Source: a virus
Direction: 5' to 3' (one strand)
Virus record (IMG/VR): IMGVR_UViG_3300020171_000019
Coordinates: 1-64,000 of that record
Length of the DNA stretch: 64,000 nt
Shown one piece after another: positions 6,786 through 51,666 of the stretch (position 1 is the first letter of the stretch; the number at the start of each line of letters is the position of its first letter). The position numbers were made by a program, and so were the translations under genes. The notes under the pieces are model-generated. The model had not been told where the DNA came from and made no database searches. It was given only the letters and a program-made list of their open reading frames with translations.

Positions 6786-6960
6786 CACCGGCACGACAGC
6801 GGAGTATGTCGATTGCGACGGATGGTCGGCAGACTTGGGTTGCAACAAAACGTGCAAGCCGCAGGACTGGAAAGGCCGATACGGGGGCAGGAATCTGTGC
6901 AGTCAATGTGCCAAGAGACGGGATGGCGATAACAGGAATTGGGCGTGGTTGACAAGATGA
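6760..6960 (+). CDS. small zinc-ribbon protein
   Basis: 66 aa starting inside the end of the 6132 gene, with GGAGGGAG about 10 nt upstream. Cysteines at CDGWSADLGCNKTC and LCSQCAK can bind one zinc. Function unknown. Confidence 0.5.
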   Translation: MTPLRRQPDTGTTAEYVDCDGWSADLGCNKTCKPQDWKGRYGGRNLCSQCAKRRDGDNRNWAWLTR

Positions 6961-21601: not shown

Positions 21602-21822
21602 TACAAACACTCTTGATAGGGATGGCGATGCAGGCTGTTATTACTGGTGTGTTGTCAGAAATGCAGGTTATTCGACTGTCCGCAGGCCAACAGTTCTGCG
21701 TCGCGGGAGTGCTTGTTGTGTTTTGGGTCGGCATTGAAGTGGAGGCATACTGGAGGAGAACATCATGCTCCCGATATAGGCGTAAATGCCTAAAGCAAGA
21801 GGCAAAAAGGGAAGGCAGATAA
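21598..21822 (+). CDS. small two-helix membrane protein
   Basis: 74 aa; two hydrophobic segments (IQTLLIGMAMQAVITGVL and FCVAGVLVVFWVGIEV) followed by a basic tail. The stop overlaps the MuF start (TAATG). It has holin-like topology, but nothing else supports that role. Confidence 0.5.
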   Translation: MIQTLLIGMAMQAVITGVLSEMQVIRLSAGQQFCVAGVLVVFWVGIEVEAYWRRTSCSRYRRKCLKQEAKREGR

Positions 21823-23897
21823 TGATCCCCCTTCGCGCATTCGGCAGAGACCTTCAGAAAGTCCACCTCCGGCGGGAGGCCGGGCTTGTTCGGGACACAA
21901 AGTCGATACTGGACAGAATGCGCAGGGACATGACTGCCACGGCTGATGAGTGGCTTGACGCAATGGTAATCAACGGGCAGCTCAACTACAAGCTCTGGGA
22001 CAGATGGCAGCGGTCGTTCGTGAATGCACTCCACAGGAACATCAAGGACGCCTATGACGATCTGGCAGGGTTGACAATCACAGCGCAAAAGACCGCGTTT
22101 GATACTGCATCCAGTGCCATAGTTGCCGAGTTCAAGACGCTGTATCCGATGATCAAGGTCGAGAAGACAGACAAAGAGCCTAAGCCACTGACGTTCATCG
22201 ACAAGTCTTTGGAGGCACTACATGCCGAGTGCTGCGCAGAACTTATGGAGTCTGGTATTGGCCAGGAACAGGCCGAAGCACAATCGTGGGCCTCCGTAAC
22301 TGCGTGGAGTTCGATCGAGGAGGCAAGGATTCCGGTACTTCAAGTTGGCAAGGGGAGAGTGACGCCGGAGTATCTTCAGTTCTTGCGGGATCAAACACGG
22401 TCGGACATCGCTCCTGGGAATCTCATCAAGACCATATCGGCGGATCAATTGAAGGTGGTTCAGGGCACTCTTGTGTCGGCGATGGAAAAAGGCAAGGACA
22501 TGCGATGGACGAAAGACAAGATAATGAGTGAGCTTGGCAAGGGGATGATCGACGAAAAAGCCAAGGAGAAACTTGACTACAACGTAATGCGGATTGTTAG
22601 GACGTCTCACAACAGGGCGGCCAATGCAAGTATTGCCTATTTCTCTGCGCAGAATCCAGTGGTTGCCGAGATGGAGAGAGTCGCGGATGGGAGACCTTGC
22701 GCGGCATGTATAACCGGGGACACAAAAATCATAACAAAAGATGGCCGAAAGCCGATAACCGATGTACAGATTGGGGATGAGGTATTGACACACAAGGGCA
22801 GGTTTATGCCAGTCCTACAAACTATGTCGCGAGGGTATTGTGGCGTGATGGTGCTCATTCATGCAAGAGGAAGGAGCTTGCGTATGACTCCGGAGCACGA
22901 AATTCTTACAGAGTACGGTTTTGTGCCGGCTATGACGCTTAAGCATAGCGACGGCATTGTCGTGTGGGATGATAAGGCGAAGGAGATGTTTTATTGTCGA
23001 CCAGACTGGTTCACATTGTACGAAGATGAACCTTGGGAAGAGATGGTCTATAATCTCGAAGTGGCCGAGGATAACTCGTACGTAGCAAACGGGATATGTG
23101 TCCACAATTGTCTTATCCTCGATGGTACTCGATACGCTAAGGGGCAGGTGCTTGTAGACCACCCTAACGGGATGTGCCTATTGACGCCTGTCGTGAAGAG
23201 CCTCGAAGAGATGGGTTACGACTACAACAGCCTTCCGGAGACAGCCAAGAAAGCATGGGTGAGGCAAGAGCGGCCACATCCACCAATGAAGATCGAGTTC
23301 TATGAATTGCCGGAGAAGGATCAACGCATTGTGCTCGGCAATTCGACATTTGAGTTGTGGAAGAAGGAGAAGTTCCCTCTTGAGGCATTGGTGGTGCGGA
23401 GTAAGGGGTGGTTGACTCCTATCACGTTCAAGGATCTACAGGCGAAGATTAGCACCCTCGGCGGACTGTCTGCACCCAAGGCAAGTCTGACGTTGGCCGA
23501 TGGAACTATGAGAATACTTACCGCCGCAGATCGGGCGATTACGCTTCCCCTCGATCCTGTGGACAGAGCGAACCCAGATGCGGTTATATGGCAAGGACAA
23601 CCTCCTCGGGTGTCAGGCCAGTATCAACAGGATTTGTTTGGGATGGGCGTTGACGGGATGATACCGGAAAGCGTGAGGGCACAGGCTGAGGACTGGTTGT
23701 TCTCGGTTGGCAAGTTACCAGATGATGCAACTTGGAGGGCGCAGGCCATAGCAGGGGCGAAGTGGCAGGAGTTCAATGAATACGCTCGGACCCTGGGGCT
23801 CTACGCACGGAAGGGCACAGATGGACGATTCTACTATGTCGTGCCAAAGGGCAAGGAGTTCAATGCGGCGATGCGGCTGACCAAGAAGGCATCATAA
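21822..23897 (+). CDS. MuF-like head morphogenesis protein interrupted by a mini-intein
   Basis: 691 aa as translated, 557 aa after removal of the 134-aa intein. The host protein follows portal and has the MuF C-terminal signature split as DGRPCAA / CLILDGT, then VDHPNGMC, a Cys/His arrangement that marks phage head morphogenesis (SPP1 gp7-type) proteins. Such proteins are minor capsid components acting during assembly or DNA ejection. The C-terminal 200 aa after the MuF domain (VRSKGWLTPITFKD, YARTLGLYARKGTDGRFYYV) are an extra domain. The start at 22 kb is by TAATG coupling. Confidence 0.8.
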   Translation: MIPLRAFGRDLQKVHLRREAGLVRDTKSILDRMRRDMTATADEWLDAMVINGQLNYKLWDRWQRSFVNALHRNIKDAYDDLAGLTITAQKTAFDTASSAIVAEFKTLYPMIKVEKTDKEPKPLTFIDKSLEALHAECCAELMESGIGQEQAEAQSWASVTAWSSIEEARIPVLQVGKGRVTPEYLQFLRDQTRSDIAPGNLIKTISADQLKVVQGTLVSAMEKGKDMRWTKDKIMSELGKGMIDEKAKEKLDYNVMRIVRTSHNRAANASIAYFSAQNPVVAEMERVADGRPCAACITGDTKIITKDGRKPITDVQIGDEVLTHKGRFMPVLQTMSRGYCGVMVLIHARGRSLRMTPEHEILTEYGFVPAMTLKHSDGIVVWDDKAKEMFYCRPDWFTLYEDEPWEEMVYNLEVAEDNSYVANGICVHNCLILDGTRYAKGQVLVDHPNGMCLLTPVVKSLEEMGYDYNSLPETAKKAWVRQERPHPPMKIEFYELPEKDQRIVLGNSTFELWKKEKFPLEALVVRSKGWLTPITFKDLQAKISTLGGLSAPKASLTLADGTMRILTAADRAITLPLDPVDRANPDAVIWQGQPPRVSGQYQQDLFGMGVDGMIPESVRAQAEDWLFSVGKLPDDATWRAQAIAGAKWQEFNEYARTLGLYARKGTDGRFYYVVPKGKEFNAAMRLTKKAS
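22707..23108 (+). mobile_element. mini-intein (134 aa, no endonuclease)
   Basis: The intein starts at Cys (CITGDTKIIT, block A), carries the block B motif RMTPEHEIL (TxxH) and ends with block F/G VYNLEVAEDNSYVANG...CVHN. The +1 extein residue is Cys. All residues for class 1 splicing are present: C1, TxxH, HN and C+1. The length of 134 aa leaves no room for a homing endonuclease, so it is probably an immobile splicing-only form. Confidence 0.9.
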
Positions 23898-26135: not shown

Positions 26136-26561
26136 GTGGCAGTCAATAGTGACATCAAGATCGTGAAATACAATCCGATGTACCTCATCTCCAATCCTAT
26201 CGCCTCGGCGACGGTGGTTGGGGTGGGTGACTTGATCGCGATTGAGTCAGACCTTGCAACGGTGCTCAGTCAGGCCGATGATGATCAGTATTTCTCAGGG
26301 CCGTCACAGGATCACTCGGCATCCGGGGATATTCTGGACATCACGACCTATGGCAAGTGCGTCGCCAGGGTGACGGTGGCCTCTGCGACCTACGGGATCG
26401 GAGATGATCTTGAGTGGCAGAGCGGGGCGAACGGCACGGCTTGGGTGTTCGTAGCAGGGGCGACAAATCCTGTTGCGCAGAGTATGCAACAGCTTGACGC
26501 GACAGGTACGGGGCCGATTCTCGTATCATTCGACGTGCAGAAACTCGGCATCTTTACTTAG
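26136..26561 (+). CDS. head decoration-like protein, tandem copy 1
   Basis: 141 aa from GTG 26136 behind GGAGGG. Beta-rich (GVGDLIAIESDLATVLSQ, TYGKCVARVTVASATYGIG) and lying just before the major capsid gene, like DUF2190/decoration proteins. The next gene is a clear paralogue. Confidence 0.65.
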   Translation: MAVNSDIKIVKYNPMYLISNPIASATVVGVGDLIAIESDLATVLSQADDDQYFSGPSQDHSASGDILDITTYGKCVARVTVASATYGIGDDLEWQSGANGTAWVFVAGATNPVAQSMQQLDATGTGPILVSFDVQKLGIFT

Positions 26562-26584
26562 CAAAGGGGAAGGAGGGAAACTGA

Positions 26585-27013
26585 ATGGCATCATTGAATA
26601 GTGACATCAAGATCGTGAAGTATGATCCGATGTGGCTCCTGACTTGCCCCATTGCTTCGGCAACTACGGTAGGAGTAGGAGACCTGATTTCGCTGGAGTC
26701 TGATCTTGCGACCGTATACAGTCAGGACAGTGATGATCAATACTTCATTGGGCCTGCGCAAGATGCGTCTCAGTCGGGCGAAACACTGGACATTTCGGCA
26801 TACGGTAAGTGCGTAGCGAGGGTCACAGTCTCTTCATCGACCTACGGGATCGGTGAGAAACTGGAATACGTGAGTGGTGGAAATGGCACGGCATGGATCT
26901 TCGAGGCTGGATCAACCAACACCATCGCCCAGAGCATACAGCAACTCGATGCTACCGGCACGGGGCCGATTCTTGTGGTCTTCGATGCTCAGAAATACGG
27001 CATCTTTACCTAA
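26585..27013 (+). CDS. head decoration-like protein, tandem copy 2
   Basis: 142 aa, aligned with copy 1 end to end (NSDIKIVKYDPMWLL versus NSDIKIVKYNPMYLI; both end in FDxQKxGIFT). Two surface-exposed paralogues could occupy different capsid sites. Function inferred from order and composition. Confidence 0.65.
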   Translation: MASLNSDIKIVKYDPMWLLTCPIASATTVGVGDLISLESDLATVYSQDSDDQYFIGPAQDASQSGETLDISAYGKCVARVTVSSSTYGIGEKLEYVSGGNGTAWIFEAGSTNTIAQSIQQLDATGTGPILVVFDAQKYGIFT

Positions 27014-27034: not shown

Positions 27035-28213
27035 ATGGAACTGATTGAATCGATCAGACAGCACGTAAGGTCACACGAGCTTGAGTGTGGCAGCAATAAG
27101 AAACTGGCCTGGAAGCATGCTGGGGCCGAGTTGCAGGAATGGTTCCTGAGTGGCAAGGTAGACGCCACCAAGTTCTCGTTGAAGGCAATCGCGGAGGCAA
27201 CGATACCGGGATTCAGTGGAATGAAGAACTCCAGCGCCGAGGAACTCTCTGAGGCAATGGTAACGTCGGCATTCCCGAACATCACCGGTTCGCTGATTCA
27301 CAGCCGGATCATCGCGGCCTATGACTACGAACTTGGGAGCCTCAAGGAACTGATCACAGAGGACACTGCAATCGACTATCCTGACTCCAGGATTGCCGGT
27401 TTCGGCGCAGGCGACGACCTCGACTTCATCGCCGAGGGAAAGCAGTACGAGGACACCATCCTGACCGAGAAGAACGTCCAGGTAAGAATTGGGAAGTTCG
27501 GCAAGATGATCGAGCTTACCAGGGAAATGGTGCTCTTCGACAAGACGAACCAAGCGGTAAGTCGTGCTCGTGCGATCGGCGAAAAGGCTGGGTCGCATCA
27601 AGCCAAGATGATAGTGCAGACAATAGAGATGCTTCCGCGGACTTGCTTCGGGGAAACCACATCGAACCTGCGCAACTTCGTCTACAACGGATCTGTAACC
27701 ACAGTCGGTAACTTCTACAACACCGATCACTCTGCCGTTCTGGACGCACAAGTCAACAGCAACAAGATCACGACCGCCCTGACGACTGCCGGAATGAACG
27801 AGGCATATGCGTTGCTGGCGGCGATGGTTGACGAGCGCGGAACCAAGATTAGCATCAAGCCGATGCACATCCTCGTGCATCCGTCGAATGAGGCGATCCT
27901 GGATCAGTTGCTGCACTCTCAGAAACAGTATGACACTGCCCATGACGCCCTGAACCCTTACGGGCCGGGTGGGCTTCGTAGTGGACTGCGGCCTATAAGC
28001 TCAGTGTTCATCGCTGATGCCGACGACTGGTATTTGGGGCGGTTCGCAAATCAGGTCGAGTGGTGTTGGGGCTGGAAGCCTGAGACGTTGGCGCAGGGTG
28101 CCACATCCGACGCGGCATTCGAGCGTGACGTGGTCAACCGGTTCCGGTTCGGCTACATGGGTGGATGTGCCCACACGGACTACCGTTACATCATCAACGC
28201 CAACGTGGCATAA
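27035..28213 (+). CDS. major capsid protein
   Basis: 392 aa with AGGAGGTGAGG upstream. It follows protease and decoration genes and has an N-terminal helical region (removed by protease in related phages), an elongated strand region (YEDTILTEKNVQVRIGKFGK, MIELTREMVLFD) and a C-terminal section with HILVHPSNEAILDQLL and FERDVVNRFRFGYM. This is the usual order of HK97-fold capsids of the Mu/T4-type size class. Confidence 0.75.
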   Translation: MELIESIRQHVRSHELECGSNKKLAWKHAGAELQEWFLSGKVDATKFSLKAIAEATIPGFSGMKNSSAEELSEAMVTSAFPNITGSLIHSRIIAAYDYELGSLKELITEDTAIDYPDSRIAGFGAGDDLDFIAEGKQYEDTILTEKNVQVRIGKFGKMIELTREMVLFDKTNQAVSRARAIGEKAGSHQAKMIVQTIEMLPRTCFGETTSNLRNFVYNGSVTTVGNFYNTDHSAVLDAQVNSNKITTALTTAGMNEAYALLAAMVDERGTKISIKPMHILVHPSNEAILDQLLHSQKQYDTAHDALNPYGPGGLRSGLRPISSVFIADADDWYLGRFANQVEWCWGWKPETLAQGATSDAAFERDVVNRFRFGYMGGCAHTDYRYIINANVA

Positions 28214-28223
28214 GGAGGCCGAT

Positions 28224-28859
28224 ATGAGGACGAGCATCAAATGGCTCACGATCGGTATCCTTCTGGCGTCGGCGGTGACGGTCTGGGCGGCAGCAACGCA
28301 CATCGGGCGGATCGTCTTTACGGAGGTTCCGGAAGTTACCGGTAGTAACGCAGAGACGATTAGCAATACCACCAATGGCTCTTGGACGCTGGACAAGTTG
28401 ATTATCACGAGTTCACCGGAGATTACAGGAGCCAATGGGGAGTATTGGACTAACACCACAAACAACATCTGGAGTTCAGATGGGGCCGTCAATACTACGG
28501 CACAGTTCACCGTTGATAGTTCGCCCATTGTCAGAACCCTGACCATCCCGATAGACAGTCTTGGCATGACGGACGTGGACATTCCGGGGGTTATCACGCT
28601 GGAGAGTGACATCACCATATTACGAGCACAGGTGACCTCGATTGATGTGACAGCCGGAAATGCCTGCTACGTTGTGTTCCATTCTGGGGCGATACGGGAT
28701 TCTGTCTCAGTTGCTCAGGGTGCACAGACAGGCGCGAACACTACAGACTATAGCCTATCGGCAGCGGCTGTGTGCAGTCTCCTTGTAAGCGACGGATCGG
28801 CAGGCACTGGCGGGACTGGTGCCATGGTGGTGATTCAGTATACCGACAAGAACGACTAA
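28224..28859 (+). CDS. unknown protein with signal peptide in virion operon
   Basis: 211 aa after AGGAGG. The N-terminus MRTSIKWLTIGILLASAVTV with following WAA is a good Sec signal peptide. The rest is a Ser/Thr/Asn-rich beta protein (TNTTNNIWSSDGAVNTTAQF, SGAIRDSVSVAQGAQ). It may be an exported or membrane-assembled surface protein, or the leader could be a tethering helix. It is the first of three such genes. Confidence 0.55.
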   Translation: MRTSIKWLTIGILLASAVTVWAAATHIGRIVFTEVPEVTGSNAETISNTTNGSWTLDKLIITSSPEITGANGEYWTNTTNNIWSSDGAVNTTAQFTVDSSPIVRTLTIPIDSLGMTDVDIPGVITLESDITILRAQVTSIDVTAGNACYVVFHSGAIRDSVSVAQGAQTGANTTDYSLSAAAVCSLLVSDGSAGTGGTGAMVVIQYTDKND

Positions 28860-28864
28860 CCGAA

Positions 28865-28890
28865 GGGAGGTGTCCTAACAGGCGCCTCCC
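28865..28890 (+). terminator. hairpin between genes, weak terminator candidate
   Basis: GGGAGGTG (28865-28872) pairs with CGCCTCCC (28883-28890), one G-T pair, 10-nt loop. No T-run follows, so it may be a processing or partial termination signal. Confidence 0.4.
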
Positions 28891-28915
28891 GTTCGCCTTA
28901 CATTGGAGTTGATCA

Positions 28916-30457
28916 GTGGCGGTTGTCTACGGAGATGTATCGGCATCGCGGACGCTGGAAGTAACGCCTTCTGATGTCCGAGTCAAAACATTTGATGCGC
29001 CGGCAGCGAGTGCTCGGGTGTCGGGCGATGTCACTGTAACGTATACGCTCGAATCTGACCTGACGGTTACGGCTTCCATTGGCGTGCAGTGGAGCACAAA
29101 CGGCTCTTCATGGGCAACTGCCACGATGGGCACCGGCGGCGATGGCACGAGCGGACTTGCAACATCCGGGGCTGGCACGTCACATACATACATCTGGGAT
29201 AGCGTAACTGACGTTGGGTCTGCTCTGGAGGATGAGGTATACCTGCGCATCCGGGCCAGCGATGGAGCTGCTTGGAGCGGCTATACGACGTCTTCTGCTT
29301 TTACGGTTGACAATCTCCCTACTGCATCCTCGTTGACGACTCCTGCCGATAGCTGGTTTGCCAAGGACACAACTCCGATCTTTGCATTTACCATTCCGAC
29401 CGATCCAGGCGGGGATTACCTGCATTTCAAGTGTGATGTCAGGAATACCGCAGGAGCGATTACTCTGAGTAGGGAGTCAAACACAACTCCGACTGGTTGG
29501 GAGTATTGGGACGACAACAGTTCTGATTACACAGGCAAGCGATACCGAGCCTACTATGTGCAGAATTTGACGGTCTCTTCATTGACTGGCACGACCCACA
29601 CATTCGCTTCGTTGACCGATAGCGTGAGAGGGACGACATTGCCGGCGTCGATCACGGGCGGGCGAGTAATGCTGATGAACAAGGCCGACCGTCTGTGTTA
29701 CGTGACGAGTGTCACGAGTTCAGGGTTTACGATTGCGATGAGCGCAGCGGGTGGAGCGGATTCGGGTCTTGTGGATGTGCTTGTCTTCTACGATGACGGC
29801 GGCGGATGGGATGAGTATTGGATCTCAGGTTATGTAGTGTCGTCGGATACAGGGTTTGCGGTGAACTACTCCAACCTGACAGATGATCATTCTGTAACCG
29901 CACTTCCCGCAACAATAACCAACGCAAAAATAGTCACCATGAGCGAAACAGATCGACAGGTTGTCATTACGTCGATTACAAATACGGGATTCACGATTCG
30001 GCGGGCGGCGGGAGGGGCAGATACGGCACAGGTAACCTTGATGATCCTGAAGACTCCGGCAGATGCTTACTGGATCACGGACTACACGGCGTCTTCGTAT
30101 AGCGGGACGAGTGTTGCGTGGAGTGCTCTGACTGATGCACTTGGCGGGGCTCTGCCGACGCACATTCCTTGGCCGTTTGTGTTGGCGTGCTCGAAGAACG
30201 GGACAATGGCCTATGTGTCAGCCGCGGACGCCTACAACATGACCATCGCAAAAAGCGTAGCAGGAGAAGACACGGATGCAACGGTTGACTTGATGATCTT
30301 CGCGCCTAACGTCACTACAGGGTTCTGGGTGCCAATGACGACTACTGGCGTGCCGGATGCGTATGAGGGGGTTGCGGCGCGGTTTACGGTTCAGGCGGCA
30401 GATGCGTTGGCAGAAGCGACCTATACATGGACAATCACGGCGGGAAATCTGGCATAA
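28916..30457 (+). CDS. Ig-like repeat virion surface protein
   Basis: 513 aa from GTG 28916. The first 130 residues resemble an Ig/FN3-like domain (VTVTYTLESDLTVTASIGVQ; YLRIRASDGAAWSGYTTS). Residues about 210-470 hold three repeats of about 85 aa, each ending like GFTIAMSAAGGADS...VDVLVFYDDGG, GFTIRRAAGGADT...VTLMILKTPA and NMTIAKSVAGEDT...VDLMIFAPN. Very rich in Ser/Thr, thus possible glycosylation target. Likely capsid or tail decoration or fibre component. Confidence 0.6.
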   Translation: MAVVYGDVSASRTLEVTPSDVRVKTFDAPAASARVSGDVTVTYTLESDLTVTASIGVQWSTNGSSWATATMGTGGDGTSGLATSGAGTSHTYIWDSVTDVGSALEDEVYLRIRASDGAAWSGYTTSSAFTVDNLPTASSLTTPADSWFAKDTTPIFAFTIPTDPGGDYLHFKCDVRNTAGAITLSRESNTTPTGWEYWDDNSSDYTGKRYRAYYVQNLTVSSLTGTTHTFASLTDSVRGTTLPASITGGRVMLMNKADRLCYVTSVTSSGFTIAMSAAGGADSGLVDVLVFYDDGGGWDEYWISGYVVSSDTGFAVNYSNLTDDHSVTALPATITNAKIVTMSETDRQVVITSITNTGFTIRRAAGGADTAQVTLMILKTPADAYWITDYTASSYSGTSVAWSALTDALGGALPTHIPWPFVLACSKNGTMAYVSAADAYNMTIAKSVAGEDTDATVDLMIFAPNVTTGFWVPMTTTGVPDAYEGVAARFTVQAADALAEATYTWTITAGNLA

Positions 30458-30471
30458 GGAAGGGGCGATCA

Positions 30472-30972
30472 ATGAAAACGATCTTGAGTATTTTTGTAGT
30501 GGTCGGGCTTCTGTCTGGGGGTATAGCACAAGCGGAGTTGATCGAGGGATATGCGGCCAATCAGGTTGTTTTGTGGGATTCAACGGACATATTCACAGAC
30601 TCTACAGACGTCACGCTATCCACTATCGTAATGATGGAGCAAAGCACACGACTGTCGGTCTACTATCAGGCGGTTTCGGCAAGCGGGACACCGAATATCA
30701 AGCTCGATATGCTCCAGTCCTACGAGAATACTGCATCGAAGTTTGCGACACCGGACACAACTACGACTCTGCGGTATAGTGGTGGTTGGTATGAGATTGC
30801 GAATATCCCGGCCATTGCAGACAGCTTGAAGGACGAAGTTGTCCACATCAAAGAGATTGCGCCGATTCCGATGAGATACTTGAGATTGAGGGTCACTGGG
30901 CGGGCTACAAATGCGCCTGATACACGAGTGAGAGTTGTTCTATTCGCACAACCACCCGTCCGCGTTCAATAG
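30472..30972 (+). CDS. unknown protein with signal peptide
   Basis: 166 aa; MKTILSIFVVVGLLSGGIAQ then A/E is a textbook signal peptide. The mature part is beta-rich (ANQVVLWDSTDIFTDSTDVT, MRYLRLRVTGRATNAPDTRV). It lies directly before the DGR target gene and may be part of the same surface assembly. Function unknown. Confidence 0.55.
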   Translation: MKTILSIFVVVGLLSGGIAQAELIEGYAANQVVLWDSTDIFTDSTDVTLSTIVMMEQSTRLSVYYQAVSASGTPNIKLDMLQSYENTASKFATPDTTTTLRYSGGWYEIANIPAIADSLKDEVVHIKEIAPIPMRYLRLRVTGRATNAPDTRVRVVLFAQPPVRVQ

Positions 30973-30984
30973 AGGAGATAGGCA

Positions 30985-33438
30985 ATGAAAAGACTGAGTT
31001 TGATTCTGGTTGGGCTGATTGCCCTTGTGCTTCCTGCGGTAGGGAGTGCATCAAAGTGGACAGTTGCGGACACGTTGCGCGTGGACAAGATCATTGCCAA
31101 AGATTCAAGCGCGGTACAGATGGGCGCAATGAGCACTGCGTTGAGCGGTAAGATCTTGGCTGATTCGGTTCTGGGGCGGACGGATACGAACACAGGCATT
31201 GTGTTGGCCGGTAGCGATACGATCAAGATGCAGACATCCGGAACGGTGCGCCTGAAGGTGAATCCTGACGGGACCGTGACGTTCATTAGCAACATCGGGG
31301 CTGAGAATGAGCCTACTCCATCATTCCCTATTTCATTCTTGAGCGGCACAGGGGACAAGATCGCACTGTGGGGCCAGTCCGGCAACACTTATGGTTTTGG
31401 TATTCAGAGTAACCTGCTACAGATTCACACGGACGTAACTGGTGCGGACATTGCATTCGGGTACGGCTCCTCGGCGGCACTGACCGAGACGGCTCGGTTG
31501 ACAGGCGCAGGACAGCTACAGATACCCACTATTGACGTTGCTGGAGGGATTCTACTCGGCGGAGATGTCAACCTCTATCGCGCTTCCGCTAATCGCCTGA
31601 AGACGGATGATGCTCTCACCGTAAACGATACTCTTAGCGTTACGGGTAAGAGTATCCTGACTGGGATTGTAAGCGTTGGAAACGGAACCGCTGCTCTTCC
31701 AGCGATAGCCGGTATCAGCGATCCGAATACCGGAATGAGGTTTCCAACAGGCGATACGCTTGCGTTCTCGACAGGCGGGAGCGAGCAGGTGCGGATTGAT
31801 CCTAGTGGCAACGTCGGCTTCGGAACCACAACTTTCGGCACGAATGCGGCGAAAGTGATCGGTCTTAGCGCAGGGGTTTCTCCTACCACGAGTCTTGCGG
31901 ATATGTCCCAGATATGGGCAGTAGACTACAACGGAGCGGGGTCTAATCGTCCGTATGTCAGAACCGAGGAAGGCAACTCCTCGCCAATCGCTGCACTCTC
32001 CGAAACGGCAATCTACTACGGCATCACGTGGAACGAGTCTGCGGATTCCTACACGAGAACCGGCAGAACTGCAGGACACAAGGTCGCTGCTACGCTTCCT
32101 GCTGGTATGCTGCCGATTCAAGAGTCTATGCGTGGCTGTCTTCTCTCCGACGCTGGAGCGGTGAACTACTACCTATCGCCTACAAACTGGGCATATAAGG
32201 AAGACGGTGCAACCGCCTCAGTTCTCACCGGCGCAGGTGGCCAGGTGATGGTGGAGATACCGAAGTTCTGGTACCGCTACGGTTACGCAAGCACAACTCA
32301 TACGTGGGAAGTATCCCCCGTTCCGATGTCGGGTTTCGCGCCTCATCCCGCGTTCTACAAAGACGGTGCTTGGGTGGACAACAGATACATCGGAGCATAT
32401 GAGGGAACGCTCTACAATGTAGGGAGCGCTTTCTACGAAAACAAGTTCGCACCGGTTGCTTCGCATTCTGCAACCTTCGATGTTGATCCCGGAACGATTA
32501 CTGCCGGCTCAGGAACGCCTTATTCGTGGTTGGCGGCTGGCGATACGATCGTTGTTACGGGAGCTGGAGGCAGTAACGGGACATACGCTATTAGCACGGT
32601 GACGGGAACCGTTATTACGTGTACTGGAGTCATAGCCGGTGTTGATTCTGTGCAGGCAACAACGGTGATTTCGTCTCTTGCGGCGGATTGGACTGCAACC
32701 ACAGGCGATAAGCTGAGCTCAGTGTCAGGATTGTTCGCAGTCTCGAATGGCACGCGAGCGCAGTTCCGCGAGATCGCCCTGAATAGGGGAGCTGGCTGGA
32801 GGCAGATAGATTACGATCTGGTTGCGGCGATTCAGCTCTTGTGTCTGACTGAGTATGCATCGTTCTATACACAGTCCGTGATTGGCGCAGGCATCTCGAA
32901 TGTCGCCGACTGGAGTGCTTACAATGCTTACTATCCCATTGCCAAAACCGGCACAGGTAATGCGATCGGGAATGCGAGCGGTAACACGGCAGGTTCAACA
33001 ACTGCTGCGGCAGAGGTGAGTGATTACGTCAAGTATAGAGGAATTGAACAGTGGTACGGACACCTGTGGAAATTTGTAGATGGGATCAACATCAACAACA
33101 ACATCCCATATCGGTGCAACACGGAGACTAACTTTGCCGATGACACGGCAAGTAACTACACCGCGATGACGAATGCCCTCGGCGCTGCAGTGACACTGCA
33201 CAACGCCAATGGGTATGTGGCTACGCTGCAAAAGATGAAATGGGGATTTCTGCCTGCGAGCGTAGGCGCAGACGGAGCAACGAAGATCACCGATTACTAC
33301 TATCAGAATAGCGGCTGGCGCGTCGCCTTGTTCGGTGGCGCTTCTGAGGATGGCGCGAATGACGGTGGCTTCTATTGGTATCTGAATAATGCCTCATCCG
33401 ATGCCAATCCGTATATTTGCGCCCGCGTTGGATTTTAG
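30985..33438 (+). CDS. DGR target protein with C-type-lectin-like variable domain
   Basis: 817 aa. The N-terminus MKRLSLILVGLIALVLPAVG is a signal peptide. Residues about 30-330 are beta-helical fibre-like repeats (GSEQVRIDPSGNVGFGTTTF). The C-terminal part has motifs of the formylglycine-generating-enzyme/CLec fold used by DGR proteins (GMLPIQESMRGCLLSDAG, VEIPKFWYRYGYA, YYYQNSGWRVALFGG). The last about 40 residues (33316-33435) are the variable region; 13 differ from the template translation, mostly at Asn/Thr/Ser/His codons. It is probably the receptor-binding or adhesion protein. Confidence 0.85.
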   Translation: MKRLSLILVGLIALVLPAVGSASKWTVADTLRVDKIIAKDSSAVQMGAMSTALSGKILADSVLGRTDTNTGIVLAGSDTIKMQTSGTVRLKVNPDGTVTFISNIGAENEPTPSFPISFLSGTGDKIALWGQSGNTYGFGIQSNLLQIHTDVTGADIAFGYGSSAALTETARLTGAGQLQIPTIDVAGGILLGGDVNLYRASANRLKTDDALTVNDTLSVTGKSILTGIVSVGNGTAALPAIAGISDPNTGMRFPTGDTLAFSTGGSEQVRIDPSGNVGFGTTTFGTNAAKVIGLSAGVSPTTSLADMSQIWAVDYNGAGSNRPYVRTEEGNSSPIAALSETAIYYGITWNESADSYTRTGRTAGHKVAATLPAGMLPIQESMRGCLLSDAGAVNYYLSPTNWAYKEDGATASVLTGAGGQVMVEIPKFWYRYGYASTTHTWEVSPVPMSGFAPHPAFYKDGAWVDNRYIGAYEGTLYNVGSAFYENKFAPVASHSATFDVDPGTITAGSGTPYSWLAAGDTIVVTGAGGSNGTYAISTVTGTVITCTGVIAGVDSVQATTVISSLAADWTATTGDKLSSVSGLFAVSNGTRAQFREIALNRGAGWRQIDYDLVAAIQLLCLTEYASFYTQSVIGAGISNVADWSAYNAYYPIAKTGTGNAIGNASGNTAGSTTAAAEVSDYVKYRGIEQWYGHLWKFVDGININNNIPYRCNTETNFADDTASNYTAMTNALGAAVTLHNANGYVATLQKMKWGFLPASVGADGATKITDYYYQNSGWRVALFGGASEDGANDGGFYWYLNNASSDANPYICARVGF
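33314..33431 (+). repeat. DGR variable region (VR)
   Basis: Aligns without gaps to 33489-33606 (offset 175). There are 18 mismatches in 118 columns, 17 of them at template adenines (A to G 13, A to T 3, A to C 1) and one T to G at template 33523. It ends 7 bp before the gene's stop codon. Confidence 0.92.
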
Positions 33439-33488
33439 GTATTATATGAAAGGAGGTTATGAAATAAACAGGATGTACACTCTGGTGC

Positions 33489-33606
33489 ACTGGCACGTCG
33501 CCTTATTCAGTGGCAATTCTAATAATGGCACGAATGACAGTGACTTCTATTGGAATCTGAATAATGCCTCATCCAATGCCAATCCGAATATTTGCACCCA
33601 CGTAGG
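33489..33606 (+). repeat. DGR template repeat (TR)
   Basis: Non-diversified, adenine-rich copy of the VR rich in AAT/AAC codons. It lies 57 bp after the VR and 128 bp before the reverse transcriptase start. It is readable in the VR frame as part of a short open frame (33446-33610), which I do not count as a gene. The 33607-33734 spacer holds a small TTGCC-TCTT-GGCAG hairpin near 33648 and may belong to the template RNA. Confidence 0.92.
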
Positions 33607-33734
33607 TTGAGCCAACTTGAAAACGATTTTGTGAGTGTACAATCCTTGCCTCTTGGCAGAAGAAACAGCATCTCCACTAAGGGTTGGTAGGGTGCAGAAA
33701 TGCATATCGAACGCCCTGGAGATGGCTTAAACCA

Positions 33735-34769
33735 ATGAAGCGACATGGCAATCTGTACAAGGCAATCTGCACGACAGAGAACATCGCAGAAGCCCACAGG
33801 AACGCACGGAAGGGAAAGACGCACTACGGTGAAGTGCAAAAGGTGGACAAAAATCCCGAGATGTATTTTCCCAAGATCCAGAGAATGTTGATGCACAAAA
33901 CGTTTCGCAACTCCAGATACTCAGTATTCAAGTTGAGAGATGCAGGCAAAGAAAGAATTATCCACAAACTCCCGTACTTCCCAGACAGGATCGTTCATCA
34001 CGCCATAATGCAAGTAGTGGAACCAATCTGGAAGCGCACGCTTATCAATGATACATTCTCGTCAATCAGGGGCAGGGGAATCCATAAGGGAATGAAGCGG
34101 ATAACAGGGGCGATGCAAGACAAAGAGGGCACGAGATATTGCCTGAAGCTTGACATAAGCAAATACTACCCATCCATCGACCATGATGTCTTGAAACAGA
34201 TCATTCGCAGAAAAATAAAGGACCCTGATCTTCTCTGGTTACTTGATGAAATTATAGACTCGGCTCCAGGTGTCCCGATAGGAAATTACCTGAGTCAGTA
34301 TTTTGCCAACTTGTATCTGAACGGCTTTGATCACTGGGCGAAGGAAACAATGAGAATCAAGTGGTATTTCAGGTATTGTGACGACATTGTAATCTTCGGT
34401 GCCACGAAAGAAGGATTACACGTGCTCCTATCTAAAATCCGGGACTACTTGTGTCAGGTTCTACGGTTGAGCGTCAAAGGCAACTACCAGGTGTTTCCCG
34501 TTGAGGTGCGCGGCGTAGACTTTCTTGGGTATGTATTCCGGCACAGCCATACCCTCGTGCGACGACGGATTAGGGACAACTGCATCAAGGCATTGAAAGG
34601 AAATATCCGGGACATCCACAAGCAACTACCGAGTTACTTCGGGTGGTTCGGTCACTGCAACAGTCACAATCTTCGGCGATCCCTTGTTGGGGATGACCTA
34701 CGGGAACGAATGAACAGATATTGCCAGATGAGCGCATTGAGTAATCCACTTAGAGGAGGTTTGATATGA
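33735..34769 (+). CDS. DGR reverse transcriptase
   Basis: 344 aa. Palm motifs are complete: LKLDISKYYPSIDHD (catalytic Asp, near residue 139), VPIGNYLSQYFANLYL with the DGR-specific IGNxxSQ signature (near 182), and FRYCDDIVIF (YxDD box, near 215), followed by VRGVDFLGYVF. It would copy TR RNA with adenine-directed errors and the cDNA would replace the VR (mutagenic homing). The start is ATG 33735; no strong ribosome site is visible. No avd gene lies next to it. Confidence 0.93.
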   Translation: MKRHGNLYKAICTTENIAEAHRNARKGKTHYGEVQKVDKNPEMYFPKIQRMLMHKTFRNSRYSVFKLRDAGKERIIHKLPYFPDRIVHHAIMQVVEPIWKRTLINDTFSSIRGRGIHKGMKRITGAMQDKEGTRYCLKLDISKYYPSIDHDVLKQIIRRKIKDPDLLWLLDEIIDSAPGVPIGNYLSQYFANLYLNGFDHWAKETMRIKWYFRYCDDIVIFGATKEGLHVLLSKIRDYLCQVLRLSVKGNYQVFPVEVRGVDFLGYVFRHSHTLVRRRIRDNCIKALKGNIRDIHKQLPSYFGWFGHCNSHNLRRSLVGDDLRERMNRYCQMSALSNPLRGGLI

Positions 34770-35149
34770 AATCAAGCTCCGATCGTTTTCCAGATGTGGT
34801 GGTGCTGTCAAACGAGCGTACCCAAATTCGCTACAACGTCTCACCTGTTACCAAGCAGGACATGGACGGCATGATCAGGACGGTCTATGAGTTCGATTAT
34901 GTAGAAATTTCCGGTGATGTAACCAAGGAGAAGATCGTGGAGGCAATCCTTCTTGTAGAGAATCCAGAGCCTGCAATGGAGATCGTGCAGGTCGTTGAGG
35001 AGAAAGCTATTGTCAATGTTGATGCGGTGCGAGTCATGGCAGTAGAGGCAGTAGCAGAAGCGGCAGAACGGTTGAGAACTGCGCCGGACAAGGAAGACGT
35101 TGTGATTGAGACAAACCCAATGGAGGTCATATGGACTGGCAGCAAGTAA
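34766..35149 (+). CDS. unknown protein downstream of DGR RT
   Basis: 127 aa overlapping the RT stop by ATGA. The N-terminal half is a mixed alpha/beta region (VVVLSNERTQIRYNVSPVT). The C-terminal half is an Ala/Val/Glu-rich helix (AVRVMAVEAVAEAAERLRTA). It lacks the compact four-helix composition expected of Avd. Function unknown. Confidence 0.5.
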   Translation: MKSSSDRFPDVVVLSNERTQIRYNVSPVTKQDMDGMIRTVYEFDYVEISGDVTKEKIVEAILLVENPEPAMEIVQVVEEKAIVNVDAVRVMAVEAVAEAAERLRTAPDKEDVVIETNPMEVIWTGSK

Positions 35150-43300: not shown

Positions 43301-43690
43301 TCTCTTAATTTCGTGCAGGCAGCCAAGTATGCAGCATTGGCGGCACTTACGGGATTGGCCGCTGGTGTTGCGGGTGGATATGCAGAACGGCAACGCAGCT
43401 TGATAGACAAGCAACTGAGTGTCCCAACAGGACAGACACAAGGAGGAGGGAGTGGTGGTGGTGAAGGTATTTATGGAGGATCACGCGCCGAAACTACGTC
43501 CTTTGCCGCTGTGTCCGTCCAGAAGGAACCGAACATCACGATTGCGCCATCCGTGACAATAGAAGCCGGTCACGATGTTTTCATAGGCGAGGGCAGCGTT
43601 GAGGAATTCAAGGTTTCACTGGAGCGCGTGATGGTGCAGTCCATCAAGGACGCGATGAGCACCGGACAAATCAAGGTAGGGAGAGGATGA
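40331..43690 (+). CDS. tape measure protein
   Basis: 1119 aa, the second-longest gene of the window, directly after the chaperones. Long helical stretches and hydrophobic segments (ILEVGKAAAIIGALAVAMSY; AIMVAAGPWLLLVGALTAAG) and a Gly-rich stretch near the C-terminus (GGGSGGGEGIYGG). It sets tail length and leaves the tail at ejection. Residues about 525-610 repeat a LPKEQSIKIKTMG / IPRDKRIKLNITG / LPKEQLIKITTYG motif three times. Confidence 0.85.
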   Translation: MPPGLSRRLSLIVDMSSKAALTGLKQLQSAINAVSATAGRVGTGAATGFSALQKGASAATGAMQRLGEGIRSSWMIASIAISAVSAAIGLFINKTAAAYQQMQSATIGLRTIAKSYGYSGDEAEAAARQLEKSTNGFLDMGSAAQALKNLLGAGLDLPRATEQIKAMTEQAIFNRQTHYGLAEAVIVATEGIKNEMSIAADATGTTKNLALMWRDYAKARGLNVMELTKLQKAEAAYIGFMEEGTRSAGDFSKALGTAQGFEVMLGFAVRKTSQAIGEFSAQLKWGVANALTPYITQVRTWIEAHKEAIRAKVAEWVRSITAAIAQAIETGIKYGSMLIDWIMKNRDFILEVGKAAAIIGALAVAMSYLKSPILVSIAALLVLMAQSEVLRGVLMELAKFVNDHKGVLLTMLGMFVATQIVTSITMVTGMVGKLQFALLALATSPAVPMFVTSLVQGFAAIMVAAGPWLLLVGALTAAGVALYRMWDESNKRMKEAAKTTANMKTPIENDMTALMDMSRELQKLPKEQSIKIKTMGMTETQTTVRDYMKVLEEIPRDKRIKLNITGKSEIEASVDEHIRQLERLPKEQLIKITTYGEKEATTTAGAHLQTVLGAAAATQKAMRKPEGQRTPEEREQIGLFSAKKYGFSLTDLPVARKTPTSATKATDEQMQAMKKLRNLQAEINMEAMSGYAKEVEAIRQKREASIAEQGELQKKAGVAVTLIANTTLAEKEAATARQKLDQETLSKVRETMGEIMALGMTNTQVELANIDAVKQARIKALVETRNMLRAMAEAPGAGPEAKQRLAEFERKIPQSLAGVETVAATSKVDVVKKGKEEDKQKLVDAQKAMMDEMTTAAIAAYNRGDIADALSTGKKIENMQRVANSKQELITAMMAGESALTEYLLNEWGRQSEAHQTMLDVTKNSFMAVALVMERVGQAMFDKDVRRQLTAVNVAKMAGRAVLAEFADMIKAKLELRMKEYVLEATAAAISLNFVQAAKYAALAALTGLAAGVAGGYAERQRSLIDKQLSVPTGQTQGGGSGGGEGIYGGSRAETTSFAAVSVQKEPNITIAPSVTIEAGHDVFIGEGSVEEFKVSLERVMVQSIKDAMSTGQIKVGRG

Positions 43691-44289
43691 TGACCTGGGA
43701 TGAGGCGCAACCCTTGATCAATAGCATCGACGGCTTTCTGGGGGCACAAGAAGGGGAGTGGCTTTTTCGGCAGGTTCAGGCAATACCTGATAGTGCAGTT
43801 GTCGTGGAGATAGGAAGTCTGCGAGGGCGGTCAACGGCCTGCTTGGCTCTTGGGTGCAAAGGGACGCAAAAGAGAGTGATTGCCATTGATCCGTTTGTTG
43901 ACTGCCGGTATGACCTGGCAGGGGCGCAGTCCTACTTCGATGTCTGGCGTGGCAACATGGAGCGCATTGGGGTGATTGACCGGATTGAGTCTTTGGTTAT
44001 GGATAGTCGGCAAGCAGGCGCATTGTGGGGGCAGCGGCAAACACCAATACACTTACTTTTTGTCGATGGTTCGCATTTGAGGGATGACGTTATTGCTGAT
44101 TTCGAGGACTTCTTTCCTTGGGTTGTGGAGGGTGGGGTAGTTGCATTTCACGACATACTTAACAATTTTGTGGGGCCACAGGAAGCATGGGAAAGGTGCT
44201 CCGGACTGTTGATCAACGTCGGGATGTGTGATTCTATGATGTTCGGACAAAAACCGGCCACGAACTACGAGGGCAAGAATGGTCACTGA
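43687..44289 (+). CDS. class I SAM-dependent methyltransferase (Methyltransf_24-like)
   Basis: 200 aa overlapping the tape measure stop. VVVEIGSLRGRSTACLALG is the SAM-binding motif I, VIAIDPF motif II, and HLLFVDGSHLRDDVIADFED with GGVVAFHDI complete the O-methyltransferase-like pattern seen in sugar and cephalosporin hydroxylase-like methyltransferases. First of a run of carbohydrate and modification genes placed inside the tail operon. Confidence 0.8.
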   Translation: MMTWDEAQPLINSIDGFLGAQEGEWLFRQVQAIPDSAVVVEIGSLRGRSTACLALGCKGTQKRVIAIDPFVDCRYDLAGAQSYFDVWRGNMERIGVIDRIESLVMDSRQAGALWGQRQTPIHLLFVDGSHLRDDVIADFEDFFPWVVEGGVVAFHDILNNFVGPQEAWERCSGLLINVGMCDSMMFGQKPATNYEGKNGH

Positions 44290-44830
44290 CAGGTCTCTGC
44301 ATCGACACACCGTGGCGGATGGTTTTCTGAGACGTCATTTGCCACATGGTTCAGGAGTAGTGATTGATGTTGGAGCGAGCGAAAACCACGAATACGAAGA
44401 CAACTACCGGGCGACCTTTAAGTCATTCGGCTATGAATACAAGCCGGGATACCTTGTTGAAGGCTGGGATCTGGCGCAGAGACAAGGCTGCAAATATACT
44501 GGCATTTTCTGTTCTCACGTGCTTGAACACATTCCGAACGATGAAATAGCGGCCAAATATCTTTGGTCGATGGCAGGGAGCTTCCTGGTGGTGGTTCTGC
44601 CGATAGCCGATGAGCACATTGAATACGGGGAAGCTCGACAAGAGGAATGGGGTCATGTGCGGCGATACTCAATAGAGAGAGTGTTGTCATTGTTTCCTGA
44701 CTTGCCAGATGCCTGTGAGGTTGAGGATGTGATTTCTTTCCTTCCATCAGGGGAGTCATGTCCGTTTGACAACTGGCAAATAGAGTGCCTGTGGGTCAAG
44801 GAGGAGGATAGATGTCATTCTCGGGACTGA
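44279..44830 (+). CDS. SAM-dependent methyltransferase-like protein
   Basis: 183 aa. GVVIDVGASENHEYEDNYRA, then CSHVLEHIPNDEIAAKYLW, the xxHVLEH(I/V) motif of Methyltransf_11-type enzymes. The motif I glycines are reduced, so activity is likely but not certain. Overlaps both neighbours. Confidence 0.65.
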   Translation: MVTDRSLHRHTVADGFLRRHLPHGSGVVIDVGASENHEYEDNYRATFKSFGYEYKPGYLVEGWDLAQRQGCKYTGIFCSHVLEHIPNDEIAAKYLWSMAGSFLVVVLPIADEHIEYGEARQEEWGHVRRYSIERVLSLFPDLPDACEVEDVISFLPSGESCPFDNWQIECLWVKEEDRCHSRD

Positions 44831-45642
44831 GCCCCAACGGAGTGCCCTATACCTGTGATAGCTGGCCGGAAGACAAAACCGGCGACTTCAACTGTGCTAT
44901 CCTTGACATTGACATCACGCACAGATGCAACCTGCGATGCGACGGGTGTATGCACTACTGCAATTATGGTATCGGCGGCGATCATCCATTCGGTGAAGGA
45001 GGCCAGTGGATGCGGAATTGGGCCGGGAAAGTGAAACCGGCGCGATTCACGATTGTCGGCGGGGAGCCATTATTGCATCCAGGGTTACATGACTACATGT
45101 TGCTTGGCGCAGAACTGTTCCCGGATTCAAGGCGTCGGGTATATACGAATGGATGGTTTCTACATGCCACACTCGGAAAGTGGCTACAGGAGACCGGATT
45201 CGATCTCTACATAAGCATGTATCCTGTGTCCAGTGACAAGGTTTTGCGGCGAGATGAGGGTATCCGGAGGTTTCTGTCCGAGGTGCCACAGGACGTATCA
45301 GTGCAAGCCGTGCAGATGAAAGATCACTGGAGAAGACCGCATCTTGGCTTCGGGTCAACACTACGACCGCACAACAGCGATCCTGTAGGGGCGTGGTCTT
45401 GGTGTACCGCACGACACGCAGTCCAGTTACACGACAATCGACTCTGGAAATGCTGCGTGTCTGCATATCTGCCGATGGCCTTGGGAAAACTCGGACTTAT
45501 GGAATGTCCGGAATGGCAACCCTTCCTGGATCAACACAGCCTTGGGACAGAAGCAACATACGACGACGTGGCAGTATTCGCATTGCGCGGCGCAGAGGCC
45601 ATTTGCGAGATGTGCCCGGACGATGGATGGGGTGAGGTATGA
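44812..45642 (+). CDS. radical SAM protein with SPASM-like C-terminal cysteines
   Basis: 276 aa. THRCNLRCDGCMHYC carries the CxxxCxxC cluster motif. FTIVGGEPLLHPGLHDYM is the GGEP motif that contacts SAM. C-terminal WSWCTARHAVQLHDNRLWKC and AICEMCPDDG give the extra cysteines of a SPASM or twitch auxiliary cluster. Such enzymes perform radical chemistry on peptides, sugars or nucleosides. Its placement between methyltransferases and glycosyltransferases suggests modification of a glycan or virion peptide. Confidence 0.85.
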   Translation: MSFSGLSPNGVPYTCDSWPEDKTGDFNCAILDIDITHRCNLRCDGCMHYCNYGIGGDHPFGEGGQWMRNWAGKVKPARFTIVGGEPLLHPGLHDYMLLGAELFPDSRRRVYTNGWFLHATLGKWLQETGFDLYISMYPVSSDKVLRRDEGIRRFLSEVPQDVSVQAVQMKDHWRRPHLGFGSTLRPHNSDPVGAWSWCTARHAVQLHDNRLWKCCVSAYLPMALGKLGLMECPEWQPFLDQHSLGTEATYDDVAVFALRGAEAICEMCPDDGWGEV

Positions 45643-46373
45643 TCGTGTCGGTTGTTGTACCGGTCTGTAATGTGGATCAATTCACGGGGACGCTATTTTC
45701 CTTATCTCAACAGACGAGGATGGCTGACGAAATAGTGATGGTGATTGAGAGAAGATTGTTGGGATTGATTCCGCTGAAATGGGTTTGTAAGCAGTTGGAA
45801 CTGCCGATTGTCTGGTCTATAATCAAGGATGAGGACAGAGGGAAATCAGGCAAGCGCCGCAACATTGGAGCACGAGAGGCGAGGGGTGACATACTTCTCT
45901 TTGTAGATGACACGATTCTGCTACCAAACAATGCGATAGAACGAATGACGAGTTATTACCAGTCTGATTCATTGGCGGTATCTGCACGAATACTGTTGTG
46001 CTATGGCGACGAGGGGTGCATTGAAATGCCTCGCAAAGATGGCCTTTGTGCATGGGGGGCATACAGGCCGTGGACAAACACCTCAATGATTCAACGAGAC
46101 GTATTCTTCGACGTTGGAGCTTTTGATGAGGACGTGGATGACACAAAAGACGGCTGGGGGAACGATGATGAAGACATAACATATCGGATAATCAAAGCCG
46201 GAATTCCACACGTGATTGATACATCGGTGACTTGTATTCATCTTAACCATCCGCGGTATGCGGCTCGTGGGTGGACGGATGCAGGCAAGGCGTATTTTCA
46301 CAAGAAACACGGAATGACAGTTCCCGAAACACACCAATGGATACACGAAAGTGGACTCGTGAGGGTTGTATGA
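45639..46373 (+). CDS. family 2 glycosyltransferase
   Basis: 244 aa. MIVSVVVPVCNVDQFTGTLF is the GT-A start, GDILLFVDDTILLP holds the DxD-like metal site, and WGNDDEDITYRIIKAG the acceptor-side ED motif. It transfers a sugar from a nucleotide donor. No TM helix, so it is cytoplasmic. Confidence 0.8.
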   Translation: MIVSVVVPVCNVDQFTGTLFSLSQQTRMADEIVMVIERRLLGLIPLKWVCKQLELPIVWSIIKDEDRGKSGKRRNIGAREARGDILLFVDDTILLPNNAIERMTSYYQSDSLAVSARILLCYGDEGCIEMPRKDGLCAWGAYRPWTNTSMIQRDVFFDVGAFDEDVDDTKDGWGNDDEDITYRIIKAGIPHVIDTSVTCIHLNHPRYAARGWTDAGKAYFHKKHGMTVPETHQWIHESGLVRVV

Positions 46374-47251
46374 CTTCTTGGTTGATTCTTCTGGACAATG
46401 ACGAAAAGGGCAGCACGTCCGTCAGGCATGCACGATACATTGAACGAGTCCTTCGATCCCAGCCAAAAGAGCACTCGGTGCAACGCTTGGTGTGGCGAGA
46501 AGGGATCGTTGTTCCTGATGCTGATATTGTGATTGACATAGGTTCACGGTGCCGGATTGAGGAGATAGGGGCTAAACTGAAGATCAACTACATCGAAGCC
46601 CTCCCGGGGTATCACACTCCCCTTGATGACAAGCGATATGACCTCTACATCTCGGGTAGTCCGCAACTGGCGCAGAATGACAGATGGCACTATATTCCAC
46701 CGCCGGTTGATCCTGCAATGTTCAAAGCGGACGAGCAACACAAGACTTCATTGCCAGAGATTGACGGAGTGACATACATCGGCCAATACTATGGTATGAA
46801 GTCATACCGGAAGGACATGAACCGGCTTCAGGATTTCTTACAGGCAGCGAGCGCGATGTATCCGGTCTCGGTCTATGGAGACAACTGGCAATCAGCGCGA
46901 CCACCGTTGAGGCTGATGCACCGGGGGTACTGTGACCTGATAGACTTGTGGTCAGTGTATCGACATAGCATAGCGATCAACACAACCAAGGGTCTTGACC
47001 ATTCTTCCACGGCTTGCAATCTGCGCCCTATGGAAACATGGGCATCTGGGGGCATCCTGTGGTCTGATCCATTGCCTCCAGAGTTCGACGAATGGTATGT
47101 CCCATTGGGTGAGATAAACAAGGAAAGCCTGTGCAATGAGATCATGGAAAGGATGGAGCCACAACGAGAGGAATTTCGTCGGGTAGTTTGTGAACGATAC
47201 AACTACCGTGTGTTTGTGGATAAACTTCTGCGGCTGACACAAGAATACTGA
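46370..47251 (+). CDS. glycosyltransferase-like protein (CgeB-like)
   Basis: 293 aa, ATGA overlap. The C-terminal half, YRHSIAINTTKGLDHSSTAC followed by NLRPMETWASGGILWSD, resembles the E-x7-G donor-binding end of GT-B enzymes of the CgeB/Glyco_trans_1_2 type. The N-terminal half is a Rossmann-like domain (DIVIDIGSRCRIEEIGAKL). Confidence 0.65.
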   Translation: MTSWLILLDNDEKGSTSVRHARYIERVLRSQPKEHSVQRLVWREGIVVPDADIVIDIGSRCRIEEIGAKLKINYIEALPGYHTPLDDKRYDLYISGSPQLAQNDRWHYIPPPVDPAMFKADEQHKTSLPEIDGVTYIGQYYGMKSYRKDMNRLQDFLQAASAMYPVSVYGDNWQSARPPLRLMHRGYCDLIDLWSVYRHSIAINTTKGLDHSSTACNLRPMETWASGGILWSDPLPPEFDEWYVPLGEINKESLCNEIMERMEPQREEFRRVVCERYNYRVFVDKLLRLTQEY

Positions 47252-47260
47252 GAGGGCAAG

Positions 47261-48277
47261 ATGCGTATCGGTTTTTGGGTTGACGGCAATCGGATCGTGA
47301 CAGAATCGGACTTCCAGTCTCAACCCCTGGGAGGCACTGAGCACTCCATCTTGCGGCTGTCCCAAACACTGGCCGCACGAGGGCACGAGGTGTATCTGTC
47401 GGGGGCCACTGAAACCAGGGCAATACTTGATGGCCGTGTTGTGATTCTCCCAGCGACTTCTTTTCTGGCAATCCCCTATCTCGATGTGGTGATATGCACG
47501 AATGGATTGCATTCAATCCCGAATGCAAAGAGGGTCTTCTTGTGGTCGCACATCTACCAGTTTGATGCTCCCGATCCCGTTTCTATCTTGGATTGCGGCG
47601 GCATCGTCTATGCAAGTGAATCATATCGGGTGCTTCTGACGGAGAAATATCCGTGGCTTGAAGAGTCCAAGTGGTGGCAGATTCCCCTCGGAGTTGATAC
47701 AGCGCCAAAGACACGGCTCAAGCGGTACCCGTGGATAGCTTATGCAGCAATACCGAATCGGGGTCTCAGCGATTTATTGGCTTGGGTAGATGATTTTGTG
47801 GCCGCAGGAATTGAGAAAGTCATGGTTTACTCCGGATGGGAACTCTACTACCCATACCGCAAGGGATTAGAGGATCTTGCACCACTGGCGGAACACCCAA
47901 ATGTGCAGGTTATTGGGGCCTTGCCTTATCAGCAATTACAGAGAGAACTGTCAAGGTGCTTGATCTATTGCTACCCCTGTAATCTTTCTCAAGAGGAACC
48001 CTGGTGCCATTCTGTGCAGACTGCAATAGCCTGTGGTCTTCCGGTTGTGACGACGACTCCGAGGTGGCCGATGTCCGGGCGTGATCGTGGGCAGGTATGG
48101 TGCGGGAGCATAATCAGGAATGACCGCGAAGTGCAAGATCGCATGGTTGCGGCAGTGGCAAGACTCTGCGAGGACAAAGGATACTGGACTAAACTGCATA
48201 ACCAGGGCCAAGAAATCACACAAGAACACTCGTGGGACAAGATTGCCGAGCAATGGGAATCAGTACTCACGAGATAG
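47261..48277 (+). CDS. family 4-like glycosyltransferase
   Basis: 338 aa. MRIGFWVDGNRIVTESDF and LGGTEHSILRLSQTLAARGH are the GT-B N-terminal glycine-rich loop and helix. SQEEPWCHSVQTAIACGLPV is the GT4 E-x7-E-like donor site. Cytoplasmic retaining glycosyltransferase; substrate unknown. Confidence 0.8.
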   Translation: MRIGFWVDGNRIVTESDFQSQPLGGTEHSILRLSQTLAARGHEVYLSGATETRAILDGRVVILPATSFLAIPYLDVVICTNGLHSIPNAKRVFLWSHIYQFDAPDPVSILDCGGIVYASESYRVLLTEKYPWLEESKWWQIPLGVDTAPKTRLKRYPWIAYAAIPNRGLSDLLAWVDDFVAAGIEKVMVYSGWELYYPYRKGLEDLAPLAEHPNVQVIGALPYQQLQRELSRCLIYCYPCNLSQEEPWCHSVQTAIACGLPVVTTTPRWPMSGRDRGQVWCGSIIRNDREVQDRMVAAVARLCEDKGYWTKLHNQGQEITQEHSWDKIAEQWESVLTR

Positions 48278-49417: not shown

Positions 49418-49418
49418 A

Positions 49419-51665: not shown

Positions 51666-51666
51666 C

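Follow-up and report, generated by a model that had tools for sequence, protein, structure and literature searches.

Tailed phages are assumed to put their structural proteins together in the cytoplasm. The closest described counterparts of the locus analyzed here are Mtd of Bordetella phage BPP-1 and phrog_5302-type systems, with which it shares a reverse transcriptase (RT), a template, a C-terminal adenine-biased variable region (VR) and a fiber-like target in the structural operon; it differs from them by a predicted Sec-type leader on the target and on its neighbors. The Legionella variable lipoprotein and the Treponema surface DGR proteins are also DGR diversified and resemble the present target in its predicted export. 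However, those are proteins of cellular organisms, and that of Legionella is a lipoprotein, whereas here the lipobox is absent and the target has fiber homology and lies in a phage structural operon. The locus is also like the T5 Llp/Cor family, in that small proteins, here predicted to be exported, are encoded beside receptor-binding genes. Llp and Cor are small lipoproteins, while in our case the fiber-like protein itself and several partners carry putative type-I leaders. T5 Llp is an exported phage protein whose gene neighbors that of the receptor-binding protein, and it targets the receptor from its position in the periplasm (PMC9586334). In a survey of 92 phage DGRs, neither signal peptides nor transmembrane regions were detectable in the proteins, in contrast to the surface-displayed ones of bacteria (Benler et al. 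2018; PMC6199706). Most cellular DGR targets have signal peptides or transmembrane domains, and in three DGR clades the viral targets mostly have a tail annotation (Roux et al. 2021; PMC8144416). Our searches of the open literature turned up no description of fiber modules with Sec leaders in tailed phages.

The window, a stretch of 64,000 nucleotides, comes from a virus record of 76,137 bp, and its plus strand carries all the structural genes called, as well as the DGR elements and the genes between the capsid and neck genes described below. The portal gene (at 19131) is followed by the gene of a head-morphogenesis-like protein (21822 to 23897) with an intein inside (Hint and intein-splicing matches, approximately residues 296 to 429) and by the major capsid protein gene (27035 to 28213; PF25209, 1.3e-20; phrog_133/4523). 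Directly 5' of the capsid gene, a tandem pair of paralogues (141 and 142 amino acids; 26136 to 27013) is decoration-like by position. The neck and tail genes start from 36814; the probable tape measure (40331) was assigned by size and position, and the candidate tail-tip genes (48287 to 55877) by position only. A methyltransferase, a radical SAM protein and three glycosyltransferases are clustered at 43687 to 48277, between the probable tape measure and the later tail genes. We also observed two lipoprotein-like genes that resemble each other (GCGQDE.FD), at 58795 to 59310 and 60073 to 60360. The ten residues at the N-terminus of the latter, MRVCAYLIVR, are common to it and the glycosyltransferase that begins at 60385, which suggests a duplication junction.

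Between the major capsid and tail genes, three genes are predicted to begin with Sec-type signal peptides, in agreement with a sequence-only reading that had assigned such leaders to genes in this position. In the 211-amino-acid orphan at 28224 to 28859, the leader spans residues 1 to 22, with cleavage predicted between MRTSIKWLTIGILLASAVTVWA and AATH; in the 166-amino-acid orphan at 30472 to 30972, it spans residues 1 to 21, with cleavage between MKTILSIFVVVGLLSGGIAQA and ELIE; and in the 817-amino-acid, tail-fiber-like DGR target at 30985 to 33438, it also spans residues 1 to 21, with cleavage between MKRLSLILVGLIALVLPAVGSA and SKW. A home-made predictor found in each of them the n-, h- and c-regions of a Sec/signal peptidase I substrate (positive n-region, hydrophobic core and cleavable c-region), and a Shine-Dalgarno sequence lies ahead of each start. 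The same reading had described the three genes as lying in a row. The three leader genes are indeed there, but their row is interrupted: a leaderless gene of 513 amino acids (28916 to 30457), for which an in-frame stop rules out an upstream start, intervenes between the first and the second. An inverted repeat, GGGAGGTGTCC...GGCGCCTCCC, is found immediately 3' of gene 28224 at 28866 to 28892, with no T-run seen.

Genes 28224 and 30472 were called type I and not lipoprotein, and hence they are not small lipoproteins of the Llp/Cor type. No close relatives of 28224, 30472 or the capsid protein were found in IMG/VR; among cultured phages, there were none for 28224, 30472 and 28916 and distant ones only for the capsid protein. 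With no detectable relatives of either leader-bearing orphan, the case for their leaders is made from the sequence itself and from the overall trend across loci, a point against the explanation favored below. A low-confidence model (pLDDT 63) gave the mature part of 30472 a beta-sandwich fold, too weakly for the protein to be named by it.

The predictor combines a von Heijne matrix with hydrophobic-core and charge rules, and it was checked on six E. coli leaders; the gene starts themselves are predicted. Type-I leaders were called in 4 of the 89 window genes, three of them inside one four-gene stretch (genes 28224 to 30985; chance of such a cluster, p 0.009), and the fourth is gene 5027, outside the virion genes. 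The home-made nature of this matrix-based predictor is a point against the export explanation, and its application to predicted starts might have picked up starts that are wrongly annotated or N-termini that are hydrophobic by chance and play no part in export. We consider this very improbable, given false-call rates of 0.37 to 0.65% (0.37% on 2462 internal starts), together with the concerted distribution of the leaders and the clean differences between orthologues described below. Moreover, the start of 30985 is forced by an in-frame TAG just upstream, at 30979 to 30981.

Residues 214 to 335 of the 30985 product contain tail-fiber repeats (phrog_18345/9942), and residues 327 to 815 form a phrog_5302 tail-protein domain (1.2e-88) that ends in the VR, located at the C-terminal end of the gene (about 33310 to 33432). 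The template region (TR; 33485 to 33607) is located 175 bp downstream of the VR, and 17 of the 22 TR/VR mismatches fall at template adenines, thus making this an ordinary DGR by anatomy. A DGR-type RT is encoded beside the target (33735 to 34769; PF00078, 1.9e-15; phrog_1423, 1.1e-120), next to a 127-amino-acid accessory-family protein that is leaderless here (34766 to 35149). The TR/VR pair, its adenine-biased mismatches and the adjacent RT bear out the earlier proposal that 30985 is the DGR target, and its product, a rapidly mutating protein, presumably recognizes host cells.

Using the target and the domain alignments A1 and A2 as queries, we collected about 200 loci, many of them contig fragments, and dereplication at 92% identity left 160 targets with a usable start. 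A leader was predicted on 25 of these 160 relatives. The other 135 are leaderless, including the nearest one, L003, with a domain identity of about 60%. On a target-domain tree (FastTree only, 155 domains), we counted 13 changes of leader state, with gains and losses pooled and no direction assigned, and at least 10 of them are forced by supported (starred) branches. According to the sequence-only reading, absence of the leader from orthologues would speak against the proposal; such absence is what we found in most relatives, but the test fails as stated, since the leader turns up repeatedly despite the leaderless relatives, with at least 10 changes of state on supported branches. The targets of isolated phages with the domain (Polaribacter Freya, Methanosarcina MetMV and Synechococcus S-EIVl) are leaderless. 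Mature parts match virion families, namely phrog_5302 in the window and phrog_20556 (baseplate) and phrog_6002 (virion structural) in other loci. Tandem phrog_5302-type targets, both with a leader, were seen in L086 (2350 to 4032 and 4438 to 6129) and L089 (4363 to 6045 and 6449 to 8140). In L012, a sister of the leader-plus locus L099, the DGR target is leaderless, and a leader-bearing gene of 156 amino acids (6456 to 6926) lies directly 3' of a capsid-like gene.

The leader-plus targets start with ATG in 24 cases and GTG in one, mostly behind a strong Shine-Dalgarno sequence, and the predicted cleavage site has Ala at -1 in 17 of 25, the choice of site being driven by the matrix. Some sites are weak (von Heijne scores of 1.9 in L064, 2.7 in L079 and 2.5 in L117), as might be expected if the hydrophobic N-termini were uncleaved membrane or virion anchors of cytoplasmic proteins, docking virions to the inner membrane or inserting during entry. 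Such a role seems improbable to us, since most leaders show all three regions (n, h and c) of a signal peptide, as well as Ala at -1, and orthologues persist without the segment. The number of cysteines per domain (6.3 vs 4.7) was considered as a reason for export. Exported DGR proteins could also be anchored on the envelope as variable adhesins, like the surface-displayed Legionella lipoprotein, and bacterial DGR targets are commonly signal peptide bearing and surface displayed (PMC6199706; PMC8144416). However, a lipobox cysteine is absent from all 25 leader-plus targets, and complete targets end at the VR, with no C-terminal anchor after it; therefore, in a diderm host, a soluble periplasmic protein is likelier than anchored display. 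In addition, neither an integrase or resolvase nor other prophage evidence was found in the 76-kb record, itself possibly incomplete, and relatives are rare in bacterial genomes (3/395 and 6/395, the seed genome being included in each). The earlier suggestion of a prophage-encoded adhesin is weakened by these results, and we give anchored display on the envelope little credence.

The genes around the target were then compared between leader-plus and leader-minus loci by Fisher-type counts, which ignore relatedness. Leaders were predicted on 25/66 upstream genes around leader-plus targets vs 7/321 around leader-minus ones, and on 18/69 vs 10/407 downstream genes. Within 1.5 kb upstream, the counts were 22/56 vs 7/271, and beyond 3 kb upstream of leader-plus targets they fell to 0/63, the excess being limited to about 3 kb on each side. 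In leader-plus loci, no leader was predicted on the RT (0/10) or on a second RT-linked small protein (0/7). Where a member of the 34766-like accessory family is present, it bears a leader in 11 of 13 cases beside a leader-plus target, in contrast to 0 of 70 beside a leader-minus one, the exceptions being the window itself and L157. A model of the accessory protein had no PDB match below an E value of 0.1, and its strong matches in BFVD are unnamed phage proteins only. In phylogenetically independent pairs, leaders on target and upstream genes changed the same way in about 5.6 and the opposite way in 0.1 (median p 0.03). For target and accessory, the pairs were 3 to 0 (p 0.25), which, like the leaderless accessories of the window and L157 and the leaderless gene 28916, tells against the export of a whole module. 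The counts suggest that leaders are placed on the fiber module as a set, with the RT spared.

Orthologue pairs show the switch within single families. The target common to L079 and L082/L085 aligns along its length, with a leader in L079 only, and an upstream protein of 137 to 158 amino acids, common to L079, L082 and L131, aligns in full length and again has a leader in L079 only; between L079 and L082/L085, the leader difference thus falls on two adjacent genes. Similarly, the accessory leader is present in L033, L133, L136 and L139 and missing from the orthologue in L105, and the targets of these loci differ in leader in the same way. The leader of L079:2814 replaces MPFEYNPFTRKLD of L082:6945, most of the length being shared, and thereby displaces the N-terminal motif NPFTRKLD, while mature L064:7043 matches part of the 944-amino-acid L063:2031, which starts with NPFSRKLD. 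We take the NPF[TS]RKLD start to be a possible virion anchor. Loss of an NPF[TS]xKLD start as a general rule was rejected, since over all loci the contrast in the motif, 0/25 vs 6/135, is not significant (p 0.59).

If this start is a virion anchor, the exported form has lost it, which argues against attachment to virions after lysis. An exported module that is no longer part of the virion might serve as a diversified soluble or envelope-bound binder, masking receptors, excluding superinfection or keeping progeny off debris. The two sister comparisons in which the leader form is without the NPF[TS]RKLD start are consistent with such a binder, as are the other candidate tail-tip genes of the window, known by position only. 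Periplasmic Llp of T5, encoded next to pb5, offers a precedent by blocking FhuA (PMC9586334). Nevertheless, we consider a non-virion binder rather unlikely: the module keeps its place in the structural operon, its fiber domains and its partner genes, there is no lipobox, and DGR diversification is better suited to host recognition than to the blocking of a fixed receptor.

Our preferred explanation, held tentatively and with slightly less than even confidence, is that a DGR-diversified tail-fiber module has been diverted as a set from the cytoplasm through Sec to the periplasm in several phage lineages. The sequences show predicted leaders that are gained or lost in concert and are restricted to a module with fiber homology and a DGR. 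Leader recurrence and leader covariation across phages support the noncytoplasmic routing proposed earlier. Since neighboring fiber proteins switch together and the RT does not, we infer joint export of the module proteins, which would meet in the periplasm. Under this explanation, the N-termini of 28224, 30472 and 30985 would be working Sec/signal peptidase I leaders on parts of a receptor-binding module; the module proteins would pass through Sec and lose their leaders, with folding and assembly taking place in the periplasm, and only the head, the tail, the RT and the DGR machinery would remain cytoplasmic. Translocation, cleavage and periplasmic assembly are steps that we infer. Lysis would bring module and virions together, and the module would then most likely attach and serve as a variable host-recognition device. 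Joining virions at lysis, the second alternative of the sequence-only reading, fits the fiber homology, yet attachment is the least certain step, which we put forward as plausible but short of probable. That the module acts free or on the envelope instead is a somewhat doubtful possibility.

The leaders predicted here contrast with the published statement that phage DGR proteins have no signal peptides. The idea of a leader switch is testable, because close leader-plus and leader-minus pairs exist (L064/L063 and L079/L082). In several lineages of tailed phage, fiber proteins and their partners could, in our cautious estimate, be exported together by Sec and put together in the periplasm; not before lysis would they be joined to virions or come into use on their own. 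If true, a recurrent leader switch on a whole fiber module would represent a new assembly route, or the conversion of fibers into secreted binding proteins, and fiber assembly would be separate from head and tail assembly. This would alter the prediction of receptor-binding proteins and where such proteins are sought. Part of the virus's host-grappling gear may be built outside the usual compartment of particle assembly.
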